Shown: piece after piece, positions 30,120-39,080 of the stretch
Layout of the letters: every line of letters starts with the position of its first letter
How positions within the stretch are numbered: position 1 is the first letter of the stretch
From: Alphaproteobacteria bacterium
GTDB lineage: Bacteria; Pseudomonadota; Alphaproteobacteria; UBA2136; JAPKEQ01
Direction of reading: 5' to 3'
Length of the DNA: 40,186 nucleotides
Assembly: GCA_028821995.1 (NCBI GenBank)
Contig: JAPKEQ010000005.1
Span: 1-40,186, forward strand
The notes under the pieces: generated by a model
Seen by the model: only the letters and a program-made list of their open reading frames with translations
What the model was told of the DNA's origin: nothing
The model's database searches: none
Made by a program: the position numbers and the translations under genes

Positions 30120-31793
30120 ATGGCAAAAAAAATACAAGGGCTAAGTGCCCTTCCACTTGGTGGTGTTGGTGAAATTGGTATGAACATGATGGTTTACGAG
30201 TGTGATGGTAGCATGATTCTCGTGGATGTAGGTGTAAGCTTCCCTGATCATTTTGCACCAGGAACTGACCTGGTTCTCCCTGATATTTCTTATGTAAGAG
30301 ATAACATTAAAAAACTTAAAGCCATTTTTATTACACACGCACATGAAGACCATGTGGGCGCATTGCCTTACTTGTGGGATGATATGCCTGTGCCTGTGTA
30401 TGCCACACCGTTTACATCAAGTGTTATTGAGCACAAAAAGCGTGACCTTGGCCTTGGTAAAGAATTTAAACTTAAAACTGTGGATATGGGCGATACAATT
30501 GAAGTCGGTCCGTTTACTGTAGAGTATGTGCCTGTAACGCACTCTGTACCAGAAGCAAGCAGCCTGTTTATTAAAACGCCTCATGGTAATATTGTTCATA
30601 CAGGTGATTACCGCTTTGACGACCGTCCAGTATTTGGCGGAAAATCAGCAGAAGCCCGCTTTAAAGAAATTGGTGAAGAGGGCGTTCTCGCTATGTTTGG
30701 TGACTCAACAAACATCTTTACTGAAGGTGCACTTAAAACGGAAAGCGACGTTGCTGATAGCCTTGATAGCCTTCTTGGCGGCATGAAAAACCGTGTGTAC
30801 TTTTGTACATTTGCCAGTAACTTTGGCCGCGTGCTTAAAATGGCTGATATTGCCATGAACCATGGCCGTAAAGTATGCCTGATGGGACGCTCTATGCACC
30901 GCATGCTTGAGTGTGTACGTGAGAGTGGGCTTATTGATCAAAAAACAGTAAACATGTTTGTAAGCTCTGAAGAGGCTTCTGCTATGCCAGACCATAAAGT
31001 GCTTGTGATTCTAACTGGTACGCAGGGCGAAAGCCGTGCAGCACTTAACCGTATGAGCGGCGGGCAAACTGTTGGCGGCATGACAATGAAGCCAAAAGAC
31101 GTTGTGATTATGTCTTCTAAGATGATTCCTGGTAACGAGCGCCCGATTTTAAACATGATGAACCGCCTGACGAAACTTGGTGCGCGTGTGATTCATGAAA
31201 AGAGTGACTTTGTACACTGTAGTGGTCATGGCTCTCAAAAAGATATTGCTAAAATGTACAACCTTGTACGCCCGCAAGTGGCTATACCAGTGCACGGTGA
31301 ATACCAACACCTTAAAGCACATGCTGAATTTGCTAAAAAATGCGGCGTTTTTGAGCAGTTCATTATTATGAACGGTCAAAAAATTATTCTTGGCCCTGAT
31401 CAGCCAGAAGTGGATAAAACTGAGTACCGCTACGGCCGTAACTACGTTGATGGCATGAACATTTTAGATGATGATGTGTTTATTGTGGCAGAGCGCCGCC
31501 GTATGGCACAAGAAGGTATTTTATCACTTAGTCTTGTTGTGGATAAAGAAGATGGTAAAGTTATCTCTGGTCCACACTTAAAGAGTAAAGGCCTCATTGA
31601 TGAACGTCTGCAAGATGACCTCATCGACCAAGCTGAAAACGAGGTTCTTGATATATTATCTAAGCGTCTTAGCCGCGCAGACATGACGAACGCCAAACAA
31701 GTGGAAGATGTGATGAGCTCTTCTGTGCGTCGTACATTTATGCGTGAGCGTGGGAAGAAGCCTACGGTAATACCTCAGGTTATTCTTGTATAA
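30120..31793 (+). CDS. rnj: Ribonuclease J
   Basis: Metallo-beta-lactamase/beta-CASP ribonuclease with 5'-to-3' exonuclease and endonuclease activity in RNA decay and rRNA maturation. The 557 residues carry HAHEDH (73-78) as the zinc-binding core, VTHSVPEA and GDYRFD as further ligands, the beta-CASP domain, the closing motif VHGEYQHLKAH, and a C-terminal domain ending in KKPTVIPQVILV. It is cytoplasmic. The start has GAAAGG upstream. The 100-base gap after coaX contains GAAGCC (30068-30073) facing GGCTTC (30087-30092), a possible leader hairpin. Its place after birA-coaX follows alphaproteobacterial synteny. Confidence 0.95.
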   Translation: MAKKIQGLSALPLGGVGEIGMNMMVYECDGSMILVDVGVSFPDHFAPGTDLVLPDISYVRDNIKKLKAIFITHAHEDHVGALPYLWDDMPVPVYATPFTSSVIEHKKRDLGLGKEFKLKTVDMGDTIEVGPFTVEYVPVTHSVPEASSLFIKTPHGNIVHTGDYRFDDRPVFGGKSAEARFKEIGEEGVLAMFGDSTNIFTEGALKTESDVADSLDSLLGGMKNRVYFCTFASNFGRVLKMADIAMNHGRKVCLMGRSMHRMLECVRESGLIDQKTVNMFVSSEEASAMPDHKVLVILTGTQGESRAALNRMSGGQTVGGMTMKPKDVVIMSSKMIPGNERPILNMMNRLTKLGARVIHEKSDFVHCSGHGSQKDIAKMYNLVRPQVAIPVHGEYQHLKAHAEFAKKCGVFEQFIIMNGQKIILGPDQPEVDKTEYRYGRNYVDGMNILDDDVFIVAERRRMAQEGILSLSLVVDKEDGKVISGPHLKSKGLIDERLQDDLIDQAENEVLDILSKRLSRADMTNAKQVEDVMSSSVRRTFMRERGKKPTVIPQVILV

Positions 31794-33787: not shown

Positions 33788-33820
33788 ACCTTAAATACCT
33801 TTGTTATTTGCAAACAAATT

Positions 33821-33937
33821 CTACTAGATTCCTGCTGTAAATGCTCGCTTTTTGCGTTCCCACTGCTCATGTACAATCAAAGTACATTGTGCTGCGTTAC
33901 TCAAAAGCAAACATTATCACTAAATTCTAGCGAATTT
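33821..33937 (+). repeat. Palindromic element, copy A (117 bp), intergenic
   Basis: First of three related elements. It starts CTACTAGATT and ends CTAGCGAATTT, with the shared core CTCATGTAC, seven bases, GTACA near the middle (33846-33886 region) and GCTGTAAA near the left end. The left flank plus end (AAATTCTACTAGA) and the right end (TCTAGCGAATTT) are near-perfect inverted repeats. It fills most of the gap between the sulfotransferase and O-methyltransferase genes. In the frame used by the tolB copy it has stop codons near both ends, so this copy is non-coding. Confidence 0.8.
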
Positions 33938-33952
33938 ATGGTGCATCTATAT

Positions 33953-35378: not shown

Positions 35379-36143
35379 ATGGAACCGACTCTCGCACAAG
35401 CTGCTTTGCATACAGATATGAGCCTTCTTGGCCTTTTTGCACAAGCTGGCCTTTTTGTAAAAATCATTATGTTTACACTTATTGGTATGTCTGTGATGAC
35501 ATGGGCAATTTTCATTGGAAAATGGACAATTTTAAAACACCTGCATAATAAGGCTGCTCGTTTTGAGGAAGCTTTTTGGAATGGTGAAGGGCTTGAAGAC
35601 CTTTATAAAGATACACGTCCTGAAGATACAGACCATATTATGGCAAAACTCTTTGTTGTTGGCCTAAAAGAATGGGGACGTAGCAAAGATAAAGACGGCG
35701 ATATTACAGGTATTGTTCAAATGGGTGCAATTGAGCGCGTACGCCAAATTCTATTTGCTAAAATGGGCCGTGAACTTGATCACCTTGAAAAAGGTCTTGG
35801 TTTCCTTGCGACAACAGGTTCCACAGCACCGTTTATCGGACTGCTTGGTACGGTTTGGGGTATTATGAGCGCTTTCCAAGGTATTGGTGCCTCTGGTAAT
35901 GCATCGCTTGCCGTTGTTGCACCTGGTATTGCAGAAGCTTTACTTGCAACAGCTATTGGCCTTTTTGCTGCGATTCCTGCGGTTATGGCTTATAACAAGC
36001 TTACGCTTGAGCTGGCACGTTACAGTGCACGCCTTGAAGGTTTTCTTGCTGAATTTACAACACTACTTGAGCGCCAACAGGCAGAAAAAGTTGTAAAATC
36101 TCGCAAGGTAAATAAAAAACGCCGCTCATCTGACGCAGCATAA
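35379..36143 (+). CDS. tolQ: Tol-Pal system proton channel protein TolQ
   Basis: Inner-membrane protein that, with TolR, uses the proton motive force to energise TolA and keep the outer membrane joined to the constricting cell. The 254 residues belong to the MotA/TolQ/ExbB family: a first helix at about 27-48, a cytoplasmic loop, and the two conserved late helices with TGSTAPFIGLLGTVWGIMSAF and APGIAEALLATAIGLFAAIPAV. TolQ rather than ExbB is favoured by the tolR-tolA-tolB neighbours. The C-terminus is basic. The ybgC gene that often precedes tolQ is absent here. Confidence 0.95.
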   Translation: MEPTLAQAALHTDMSLLGLFAQAGLFVKIIMFTLIGMSVMTWAIFIGKWTILKHLHNKAARFEEAFWNGEGLEDLYKDTRPEDTDHIMAKLFVVGLKEWGRSKDKDGDITGIVQMGAIERVRQILFAKMGRELDHLEKGLGFLATTGSTAPFIGLLGTVWGIMSAFQGIGASGNASLAVVAPGIAEALLATAIGLFAAIPAVMAYNKLTLELARYSARLEGFLAEFTTLLERQQAEKVVKSRKVNKKRRSSDAA

Positions 36144-36155
36144 GGAGAAAGAGCT

Positions 36156-36590
36156 ATGGCTGGATCTTTAATGCCCAAAGCGCAGCGCGGTGCTGGACGT
36201 TCTTACAGACGCCCACCTATGCAGGAAATTAACGTAACGCCCTTTGTGGATGTTATGCTCGTGCTGCTTATTATCTTTATGGTCACAGCGCCGCTGATTA
36301 CCCAGGGCGTAGATATCTCTCTCCCTGAAGTGCAAAGTAAAGCCATTAGCGAAAACAATGAGCCGATTCAGGTCGGTATTGCTAAAAATGGTAAAGTTTA
36401 CATGCAGGACACAGAAGTGTCTCTTCCTGATATTGCAGATAAAATTACAGCCATTAAAGCCACGCGCCCTGAAATTGCAGTGCTTCTGCGCGCGGATACT
36501 GAAGTGGATTATGGACAAGTGATGAAAGTTATGTCTGCGCTTCAAGGGGCTGGCATTGTAAACATTGGCCTTGAAACGCAAACCCCTTAA
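36156..36590 (+). CDS. tolR: Tol-Pal system protein TolR
   Basis: Partner of TolQ in the proton channel. The 144 residues have a short cytoplasmic N-terminus, one membrane helix (about 28-48) containing the essential Asp32 in NVTPFVDVMLVLLIIFMV, and a periplasmic ExbD/TolR domain (VDISLPEVQSKA, then PEIAVLLRADTEVDYGQVMKVM). An AAGGAG ribosome site lies upstream. tolA begins 20 bases after its stop if the ATG at 36610 is used. Confidence 0.96.
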   Translation: MAGSLMPKAQRGAGRSYRRPPMQEINVTPFVDVMLVLLIIFMVTAPLITQGVDISLPEVQSKAISENNEPIQVGIAKNGKVYMQDTEVSLPDIADKITAIKATRPEIAVLLRADTEVDYGQVMKVMSALQGAGIVNIGLETQTP

Positions 36591-36609
36591 TAAACGTAGG
36601 CTTAACCGA

Positions 36610-37437
36610 ATGATGAAACGTACAACTCATGACGATCAAATGCGCTTTGGCATTGTTTGGTCTGTTATTGTGCATGTCATCCTTTTAGGCGTTATTGCGA
36701 TTCAATGGCCCTCTATGTTGGATCTTGAGCAAGAAGAACCGCCAGCGATTCAGGTTAAAATTGTTTCTGTTAAAAAGGAAGATAGCTTTAAAACACCTAA
36801 GGAAATTAAAAAACCTGAACCTGTATTCACGCAGCAGTCTGCCGCGCCAGCAGAGCCGCCTAAACCTCAAAAGGCTAAAAAGGCTGATGCACCCAAAATG
36901 GCAAAGGTAGAGACTAAAGTACCTGAAAAACCTAAACCTGAACCCAAAAAACAGGTTCAGAAAGAGAAGCAGCAAAAGCGTCCAGAAAAGCTGGATAAAT
37001 CCAAAGACAAAAAGCCTGTGATTAAAGACCCTAAGGCCAAGCCAAAACCTAAGAAAAATGATGATTTCTTAAAGGCGTTAAGTTTTATTGAAAATCTTAA
37101 AGATGAAGATGATAAAGAAGATGATGCGCCAGCAGAGCAGGCGGGTGAGGATGATGCACCACTTCTTTTGGTTGATATTGAAGCGCAAAACCGTATTAAA
37201 AAACATATTTCAAATAACTGGCTTAAACCTTCAGGCACTGTTGGTACATTTGAAGTGATGCTTGAAATTAAAATTAACCGCGACGGAACGCTTAAGAGCG
37301 CGCGCGTTATTAAAAGTAGCGGAAAACCATTTTTTGATAACTCATTGCTGCGCGCTGTGAGAAAATCAGAACCGATTCCGTACCCAGCGGATAAATACAA
37401 TAAATTTAAAGTAATGGAGATTATTTGGAATGGCTAA
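36610..37437 (+). CDS. tolA: Tol-Pal system protein TolA
   Basis: Links the inner-membrane TolQR motor to Pal and TolB across the periplasm. From the ATG at 36610 (GTAGG nine bases upstream) it has 275 residues: a membrane helix at about 13-32 (FGIVWSVIVHVILLGVIAIQ), a long Lys/Pro/Glu-rich rod (about 60-165, for example KPKPEPKKQVQKEKQQKRPE), an acidic patch, and a C-terminal TonB/TolA-like domain (about 185-275, VDIEAQNRIKKHISNNWLKP, ending FKVMEIIWNG). An in-frame TTG at 36565 would overlap tolR by 26 bases and is less likely. Low overall identity is normal for TolA; the assignment rests on architecture and position. It overlaps tolB by eight bases. Confidence 0.92.
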   Translation: MMKRTTHDDQMRFGIVWSVIVHVILLGVIAIQWPSMLDLEQEEPPAIQVKIVSVKKEDSFKTPKEIKKPEPVFTQQSAAPAEPPKPQKAKKADAPKMAKVETKVPEKPKPEPKKQVQKEKQQKRPEKLDKSKDKKPVIKDPKAKPKPKKNDDFLKALSFIENLKDEDDKEDDAPAEQAGEDDAPLLLVDIEAQNRIKKHISNNWLKPSGTVGTFEVMLEIKINRDGTLKSARVIKSSGKPFFDNSLLRAVRKSEPIPYPADKYNKFKVMEIIWNG

Positions 37438-38860
37438 AAAATTCTACTTGTCGTGGCTGCAAACATGTCTTTCCCTGCTGAGCTTGGCTCATGTACATTT
37501 GGGTACACTTCGCCTGCGCGCATCGGTCAACCCAAGTTTTCGCTTACGACAAGCGAATTTTGCTCGTGTAGCACTGCTTGCTATAACACTTATTTTCACA
37601 TCTATGAGTGCGCAGGCACGCGTACGCATTTACCTTGATGAAGGGAATACTGCGCCCCTTCCAATTGCTCTTATTCCATTTGATGGCCCTGATAGCGAAA
37701 TGGACGAAATGGGCGAAAAAATGCGCGAAGTTATTATGAATAACTTAAATAACTCTGGCCTTTTTGAAGTCATTAAAAAGAAAGCTTACCTGCAAGATAA
37801 CGCATCTCTTGTACGCGAAGGCCCTAAGTTTGCAGAGTGGAAACTTATTAAGGCTGAAGGCCTTGTGATGGGATCCGTTGTAGAAGAAAATGATAAGGTG
37901 ACAGTTGAGTTTCGCCTTATGGACGTCTACGGAGAAAAGCAGCTTAGCGGCCGCCGCTATAGCGCAGATAAACAGTTTTGGCGTCACCTTGCGCACCGCG
38001 TATCAGATGATATCTACAGCACTATGACAGGTGAAAAAGGTTACTTTGCAACGCGTGTTGTACATATTTCAGAGCAAAAGCGCGCGAATGAAATTGTTAA
38101 AAAACTTTGTGTAATGGATCAAGACGGTGAAAACTACCAGTGTTTGACTGATGGCAGCCACCTTGTCCTTACGCCGCGTTTTTCACCAGAAGCACAGCAA
38201 CTTATTTATATGTCCTATGAAAACGGGCGTCCACGTTTGTACTTCCTTGATCTGCCAACAGGTAAGCAAACAATTGTTGGGGATTACGAAGGATTAAATA
38301 GCTCGCCACGTTTTAGCCCTGATGGCAAAAGCATTGTTATGACGCTTACAAAGGGGCACGAGGGTAATGCAGAAATTTATAGCATGAACCTGCGCAGTAA
38401 AAAGCTGAAACGCCTGACGAACCAGCGCGGCATTGATACTTCGCCAGACTTTAGCCCTGACGGAAAACAGATTGTATTTAACAGTGACCGTGGTGGTAAG
38501 GCCGCGCTTTATATTATGAAAAAAAATGGTAAAGGCGTACGCCGCCTTACATTTGGAGATGGACGTTACTACGCGCCAGTATGGTCTCCTCGCGGTGACC
38601 TTATTGCTTTTGTAAAAGAATATAAAGGCCGTTTTGGTATTGGTGTAATTGACGTAGATGGTAAAGAAGAGCGTATGCTTACAGATAGTTTTCTGGATGA
38701 GTCGCCAACATGGTCGCCAAACGGCCGTGTCATTGCTTTTGCGCGCCAAAAGGGTGACGTGACAAAGATGTACACCATTGACCTTACAGGACATAACGAG
38801 CGTCAAATGCCGACACCGCTTAACGCGAGTGATCCGGCATGGAGCCCGCTATTGCATTAA
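37430..38860 (+). CDS. tolB: Tol-Pal system periplasmic protein TolB, with palindromic element inserted in its signal peptide
   Basis: Periplasmic beta-propeller that interacts with Pal and TolA. Of 476 residues, the mature part begins about residue 64 (RVRIYLDEG) with the N-terminal domain, then propeller blades carrying FSPDGKSIV, FSPDGKQIVFNSDRGG and WSPNGRVIAFARQ. The export signal is odd: MAKKF is followed by 39 extra residues (from YLSWLQTC to RLRQANF) before ARVALLAITL, IFTSMSAQA. The extra stretch equals a 117-bp repeat found twice more nearby. Without it the signal peptide would be 24 residues and typical. The insert adds a second hydrophobic segment and several Arg residues, so export may use an altered or internal signal. 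The ATG at 37430 overlaps tolA; no downstream ATG precedes ARVALL. No pal gene follows. Confidence 0.95.
   Translation: MAKKFYLSWLQTCLSLLSLAHVHLGTLRLRASVNPSFRLRQANFARVALLAITLIFTSMSAQARVRIYLDEGNTAPLPIALIPFDGPDSEMDEMGEKMREVIMNNLNNSGLFEVIKKKAYLQDNASLVREGPKFAEWKLIKAEGLVMGSVVEENDKVTVEFRLMDVYGEKQLSGRRYSADKQFWRHLAHRVSDDIYSTMTGEKGYFATRVVHISEQKRANEIVKKLCVMDQDGENYQCLTDGSHLVLTPRFSPEAQQLIYMSYENGRPRLYFLDLPTGKQTIVGDYEGLNSSPRFSPDGKSIVMTLTKGHEGNAEIYSMNLRSKKLKRLTNQRGIDTSPDFSPDGKQIVFNSDRGGKAALYIMKKNGKGVRRLTFGDGRYYAPVWSPRGDLIAFVKEYKGRFGIGVIDVDGKEERMLTDSFLDESPTWSPNGRVIAFARQKGDVTKMYTIDLTGHNERQMPTPLNASDPAWSPLLH
37444..37560 (+). mobile_element. Palindromic element, copy B (117 bp), inside tolB
   Basis: Same orientation and length as copy A. 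Left end with flank AAAATTCTACTTGTCGT and right end ACGACAAGCGAATTTT form an inverted repeat with one small asymmetry. The core CTCATGTAC, six bases, GTACA and GCTGCAAA near the left are shared with the other copies. The Phe codon before the insert (37442-37444) and after it (37559-37561) are exactly 117 bases apart, so 39 codons were added and the frame is kept. Fusing the flanks would restore AAA AAA TTT GCT CGT. Confidence 0.82.
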
Positions 38861-38864
38861 AATG

Positions 38865-38980
38865 CTACTTAAGCAGAGCTGCAAATTCACCTGCTTTGCG
38901 CTTCCGTTTCTCATGTACTTATAAGTACACTGCGATACGGTTCTTAAGCAGGAGTATTTTCGCCACAGCTAAGCGCATTT
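38865..38980 (+). repeat. Palindromic element, copy C (116 bp), between tolB and icd
   Basis: Same orientation as copies A and B. It starts CTACTTAAGC, carries GCTGCAAATT, the core CTCATGTAC then GTACA (here with the perfect palindrome GTACTTATAAGTAC), and ends AAGCGCATTT. The ends with flanks read TTAAAATGCTACTTA and TAAGCGCATTTTAA, again inverted. Inside, CCTGCTT and CCGT on the left pair with ACGG and AAGCAGG on the right. In the frame used by the tolB copy this copy is open from end to end. Confidence 0.8.
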
Positions 38981-39080
38981 TAAAAGCAATAGAGAGAAGC
39001 TTTAAGGTTAAAAAAGAATAAGTTTTACTGCTGATAGGCAGAATAGAAATGGCGAGAGCCACAAAAAGGAGAGAAGATAG

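Follow-up and report, generated by a model that had tools for sequence, protein, structure and literature searches.

We found that tolB in this alphaproteobacterial genome (G000) carries 39 extra codons, which very probably are a copy of a dispersed palindromic repeat placed at the stop codon of the preceding gene, tolA, and read through by tolB in phase. In the window (the whole stretch analysed, 40,186 nucleotides, with all coordinates given on its plus strand), tolQ, tolR, tolA and tolB are consecutive at 35379-38860. The tolA gene (36565..37437) scores above the TIGR02794 cut-off, its true start perhaps lying 3' of the TTG at 36565, and ends in the TAA at 37435-37437 that anchors the insert. 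The tolB gene (37430..38860) encodes 476 residues including the 39 extra ones, was identified by profile search (TIGR02800, 441 bits, residues 56-472; TolB_N and PD40 repeats), and its start, ATGGCTAA, overlaps the tolA stop. The element extends from foot to foot (AAAATTC...GAATTTT) over 37438..37561, and perfect feet at 37438-37444 and 37555-37561 bound the insert; its covariance-model match (37434-37567) reaches 61.4 bits. The 117 nt in excess of an ordinary tolB can be assigned to 37443..37559, one among several equivalent placements. The preliminary description of this DNA had read 39 additional codons between MAKKF and ARVALLAITL, with flanking Phe codons 117 nt apart, and both readings hold: the frame is open all through, and the codons are TTC at 37442-37444 and TTT at 37559-37561.

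Within the element, a variable arm, CTTGTCGT (37447..37454), pairs at 8/8 positions with ACGACAAG (37546-37553). It is followed by an inner conserved motif, GCTGCAAAC (37456..37464), whose partner is GTTTTCGC (37536-37543); the family forms of these are GCTGCAAAT and ATTTTCGC, so that a T-A pair has changed to C-G and the change is compensated. A conserved apex, CTCATGTAC-N6-GTACACT, occupies 37488..37509. As RNA, the tolB palindrome gains only modestly in folding energy over shuffled sequences (z -1.6), and it is convincing because of the family match and not because of this energy.

The one genome of the same genus that was compared (G001) encodes an insert-free TolB 92% identical to that of G000. 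In the alignment, MAKVYSLILATFMTVFVALSAEA-RV in G001 stands against MAKKF, the 39 residues and ARVALLAITLIFTSMSAQA-RV in G000. The 33 nt 5' of ATGGCTAAA are identical or almost so in both genomes, tolB has the same overlap with tolA, the same start region and the same ATG position, and tolA ends in the same WNG-stop. The G001 protein is one codon shorter even than the G000 protein minus the insert, and the codons right after the junction have diverged, where neither the exact junction nor a target duplication can be read. This comparison, together with the family match, bears out the in-frame insertion of a palindromic repeat proposed earlier, as well as the claim that TolB minus the insert has an ordinary Sec signal. 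The alignment of relatives that had been suggested as a check agrees in part: the 39 residues are absent from G001, but the flanks do not match perfectly. An unrelated N-terminal extension of equal length, which would have spoken against insertion, is not what G001 has, its TolB being without any extension. Nor is the insert present in TolB from other families of the same order, and on these outgroups rests the polarity of the change, by which the copy would have been gained at the tolA stop in G000 and not lost in G001. The genus is sampled here by two draft assemblies, one of them an 85.6%-complete MAG.

In order to describe the family, an alignment was made of twelve copies of G000 and G001, leaving out the tolB copy, the structure annotation was set after inspection of RNAalifold output and of single copies, and a covariance model was built on these twelve. 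The tolB copy, unseen by the model, obtains its score with E 2e-13 within the window and 9e-12 in the genome. At a threshold of at least 40 bits there are 21 copies in G000 and 50 in G001 (71 in total), about 115-125 nt long, and at E<=0.01 matches occur in 20 of 41 genomes, among them G000 with 28, G001 with 58, G027 with 52 and G030 with 38. The feet AAATTC/GAATTT constitute terminal inverted repeats, as in the definition of MITEs. The inner half of the tolB copy has decayed relative to the family, and this copy may be old or shaped by coding. No Rfam family matched over the element, at gathering thresholds or at E<=10, and group I/II intron RNA was thus not found. The Y1/RAYT transposase domain (PF01797) had no match in G000 (incomplete), G001 or G027, which argues against it as the mobiliser in these genomes. 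A literature search retrieved no published description of the motif, of the palindromic repeat or of its placement at stop codons, a weak negative since subscription literature lay mostly outside its reach.

What distinguishes the family is where its copies lie. With every ORF of at least 80 codons taken as a gene, 32 of 47 copies in G000 and G001 have their 5' foot no more than 4 nt away from the stop of the upstream sense gene, against 7.3 expected (P 1.3e-20) under a null in which copies are spread evenly within the intergenic gap; selection for stop-adjacent positions could mimic this result. Stops that face the right end of the repeat are within 4 nt in 0/27 cases (3.9 expected), and the anchoring rule is therefore directional, even between convergent genes. 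TAA accounts for 30/32 anchoring stops, versus 72% of stops generally. About a third of the copies with a sense upstream gene, plus all those without one, are unanchored. In G027, which belongs to another family of the same class, 15/19 copies are anchored against 5.2 expected once the foot is moved outward by 12 nt, a shift picked post hoc, so that its P value is to be taken cautiously; the outer arms are longer there, and the stop lies just outside them. The position test thus shows the family to be tied to the stops of upstream genes in sense orientation.

The anchoring also explains why tolB was hit. The copy starts at 37438, the base directly after the tolA stop, while the tolB ATG (37430-37432) precedes that stop by five bases; a repeat placed after tolA therefore had to enter tolB, from the third codon. 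The preliminary description had taken the signal peptide as the host site, a view that must be given up, as the tolB copy sits at the tolA stop like the family at other upstream sense stops. In the mechanism that we propose, a repeat of about 115-125 nt, with its 5' foot anchored at the stop of the gene that it follows and in the same orientation, would have been placed at the tolA TAA and so would have entered tolB; being stop-free and phase-keeping, it could be read through. Among 33 stop-anchored copies, only three, counting the tolB copy, lack a stop in the tolB frame, and 20/99 forward frames are open, which denotes a family without coding tendency; the tolB copy owes its survival to an open frame and a kept phase. 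Another stop-anchored copy, G001:C6:37153-37285, is open into a downstream ORF of more than 200 codons, its G000 ortholog being closed, and is a possible second N-terminal extension.

A selfish repeat with coding sequence as its target and tolerated where it keeps the frame, in the manner of the Rickettsia palindromic elements (RPEs), would give the same outcome, namely a palindrome of about 100-150 bp that lies in frame within a conserved gene (PMC10969869, PMC2229807), and would make the tolA stop a coincidence. We consider this quite improbable: most copies are intergenic, the tolB copy is the only one of the 71 inside a long conserved gene, it begins right after a stop as 32/47 others do, and the open frames are as few as given above. 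An assembly artefact deserves mention because G000 is a MAG of 140 contigs and 85.6% completeness, but it would hardly keep the frame and the family structure intact at the feet, nor reproduce a stop-codon placement like that of dozens of copies in two independent assemblies, and we regard it as highly implausible.

With respect to the protein, the original signal appears to be kept (ARVALLAITLIFTSMSAQA, hydrophobic core and AQA signal-peptidase site at 37562..37618, judged by hydropathy and position). The hydrophobic stretch after the insert has a Kyte-Doolittle value of 2.4 over 12 residues (2.5 in G001), followed by AQA before RVRIY, and this core and cleavage site are now preceded by about 46 residues. 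Some known proteins have long n-regions that Sec tolerates. As the core and AQA are intact and such n-regions are tolerated, the predicted export is plausible, and TolB is likely exported via the extended signal, with translation still proceeding, we infer, from the old ATG. Alternatively, translation might start inside or after the element, at the TTG codons 37448, 37484 or 37499, and the 39 residues would then not be part of the protein. Those codons do occur in frame, and the RNA hairpin begins 8 nt past the ATG. Predicted pairing around the start changes when the insert is present but leaves the ribosome site not clearly hidden. Against an internal start, the ATG and the sequence upstream are kept as in G001, no Shine-Dalgarno-like sequence was seen by eye ahead of the TTG codons, and the frame stays open over 39 codons though most copies would close it. 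We therefore consider internal initiation unlikely.

The window holds two further copies and one informative empty site. The second copy (38856..38986; 114.3 bits, itself part of the training set) lies at the stop of tolB, TAA at 38858-38860, and the final two bases of this codon are inside the copy's foot AAAATGC (38859-38865; the other foot is GCATTTT, 38975-38981), and its site is empty in G001. Repeat copies thus flank tolB at both ends. The third copy (33811..33944; 74.3 bits, outside the training set) lies antisense between two minus-strand genes, without stop anchoring, and the G001 sequence there is unrelated. Conversely, the stop of the RNase J gene (31791..31793) is empty here, and G001 has a copy exactly at the same stop. 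Filled and empty sites are then seen in both directions between the sister genomes, and only 7 shared pairs were found among about 30 copies in G000 and 60 in G001; the empty sites have diverged too far from the filled ones for target-site duplications to be compared. The final residue of TolA, TolB and RNase J is the same whether or not the element is present, and this rules out for these three that the element supplies its own stop and truncates genes.

The structure of the repeat is well preserved. In the alignment of twelve copies, 81.5% of cells are paired versus 36-40% for sliding controls, and 73 cells show double changes versus 27 in shuffles. Six pairs of orthologous copies have between 1 and 9 double changes, the pairing being taken from the structure predicted on the same two sequences. 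One orthologous pair, G000:C15:15445-15576 and G001:C2:94203-94335, has a left flank identical over more than 30 nt, and its arms have changed at most positions on either side yet remain paired, as though both had been replaced jointly. Arms whose pairing is maintained through double changes suggest a structure that would act as a folded single strand, either as RNA beyond the ends of genes or as DNA while the repeat moves. The stem covers the stop codon and about nine bases and excludes the coding sequence; the stop foot pairs with the 3' foot, partly since AATTC/GAATT is family-wide. An origin of the 3' arm by copying of the gene's coding end is rejected, because pairing begins at the stop and matched coding ends show no advantage over swapped ones (125/2000 swaps were as good as the matched ends).

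Such a hairpin could also be a host RNA element of mRNA 3' ends, for stabilisation, processing or termination, selected after stops and not primarily mobile. Sense orientation and stop anchoring would fit this explanation, as would the compensatory changes between orthologous copies and a pairing that covers the stop plus about 9 nt and leaves out coding sequence. It accounts poorly for copies that are mostly unshared between the sister genomes (7 pairs, empty sites), for the patchiness across species and for the many copies without a sense upstream gene. Judged on these sequence data, a host 3'-end element is possible but doubtful, and our preferred reading is a structured repeat that is mobile and is either placed or retained at stops.

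The apex recurs across phyla. In its exact form, TGCTCATGTAC-N6-GTACACTGCGC, it was found in Alpha- and Gammaproteobacteria, Deltaproteobacteria, Deferribacteraceae, Balneolales, Spirochaeta and a Caenarcanales MAG. The copies in other groups have different outer arms (e.g. TAGCAGGCTGTTGAAAAA) and lie mostly beside stop codons. For apex-only copies of other classes and phyla, the left stop is at -62 to -48 from the apex, preceded by an ORF of 100 codons or longer, in about 34/43 cases, a count judged from a list without formal test in which some copies share a genome; on the mirror side the stop positions are scattered. In a sample over the phylum, 2/299 genomes have the exact apex, the genome of the window included, and the motif is therefore rare and patchy. 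Tentatively, and with rather less than even confidence, these copies may represent a so far undescribed superfamily of hairpin repeats, patchy over several phyla and placed sense-wise at stops via translation end or mRNA 3' ends and not by a plain DNA target, in which the apex would be the recognition site and the arms vary yet pair. A repeat of the stop-anchored kind appears, in any case, to exist in very different bacteria and to be seemingly undescribed.

In this sense, what seemed a repeat that had jumped into a signal peptide becomes a case of a rule that predicts placement, on stop codons and in sense, and TolB is the collateral damage of overlapping genes. The rule predicts that wherever a start overlaps the previous stop, a repeat will extend the downstream N-terminus if it is open in frame. 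Should the anchoring prove valid in the other phyla too, it becomes directly testable which factor recognises stop codons, as DNA or as RNA.

Several known systems resemble the present family. REP elements are structured repeats 3' of genes as well, but they are much shorter (20-40 bp) and moved by Y1 transposases, whose PF01797 is lacking in G000, G001 and G027. Integron attC sites are folded imperfect palindromes with variable arms, located after the stop of the cassette gene, whereas the copies described here lie behind housekeeping genes of the chromosome and have a different apex in common. RIME of rhizobia is a palindromic intergenic repeat, like Bru-RS within about 103-118 bp in length, and may be related to the present one. 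Bru-RS of Brucella, also palindromic and intergenic (PMC2267715), may well be related, because the apex occurs in Pseudochrobactrum, Phyllobacterium and Mesorhizobium; the comparison is one of descriptions, and stop anchoring is not mentioned in the parts of its accounts consulted. The CIR repeats of Caulobacter and Brucella are likewise long, intergenic, structured repeats of Alphaproteobacteria of similar length (about 110 bp), but are described as two arms joined by a linker, with GANTC conserved (PMC2229807), whereas the present repeat is one long hairpin with GANTC in only 11/111 copies. RPEs, finally, are dispersed alphaproteobacterial palindromes, about 95-150 bp long, which can come to lie in frame within conserved genes (PMC2229807, PMC10969869), and the tolB repeat shares the dispersal, the size range and that position. 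The parallel drawn earlier with RPEs holds for this outcome in tolB but is otherwise loose, since repeated in-frame insertion into many protein genes is not seen (1/71 copies). We do not class the repeat as an RPE because in-gene insertion is exceptional here; stop-anchored, sense-oriented and almost never in genes, the family is set apart by its placement.
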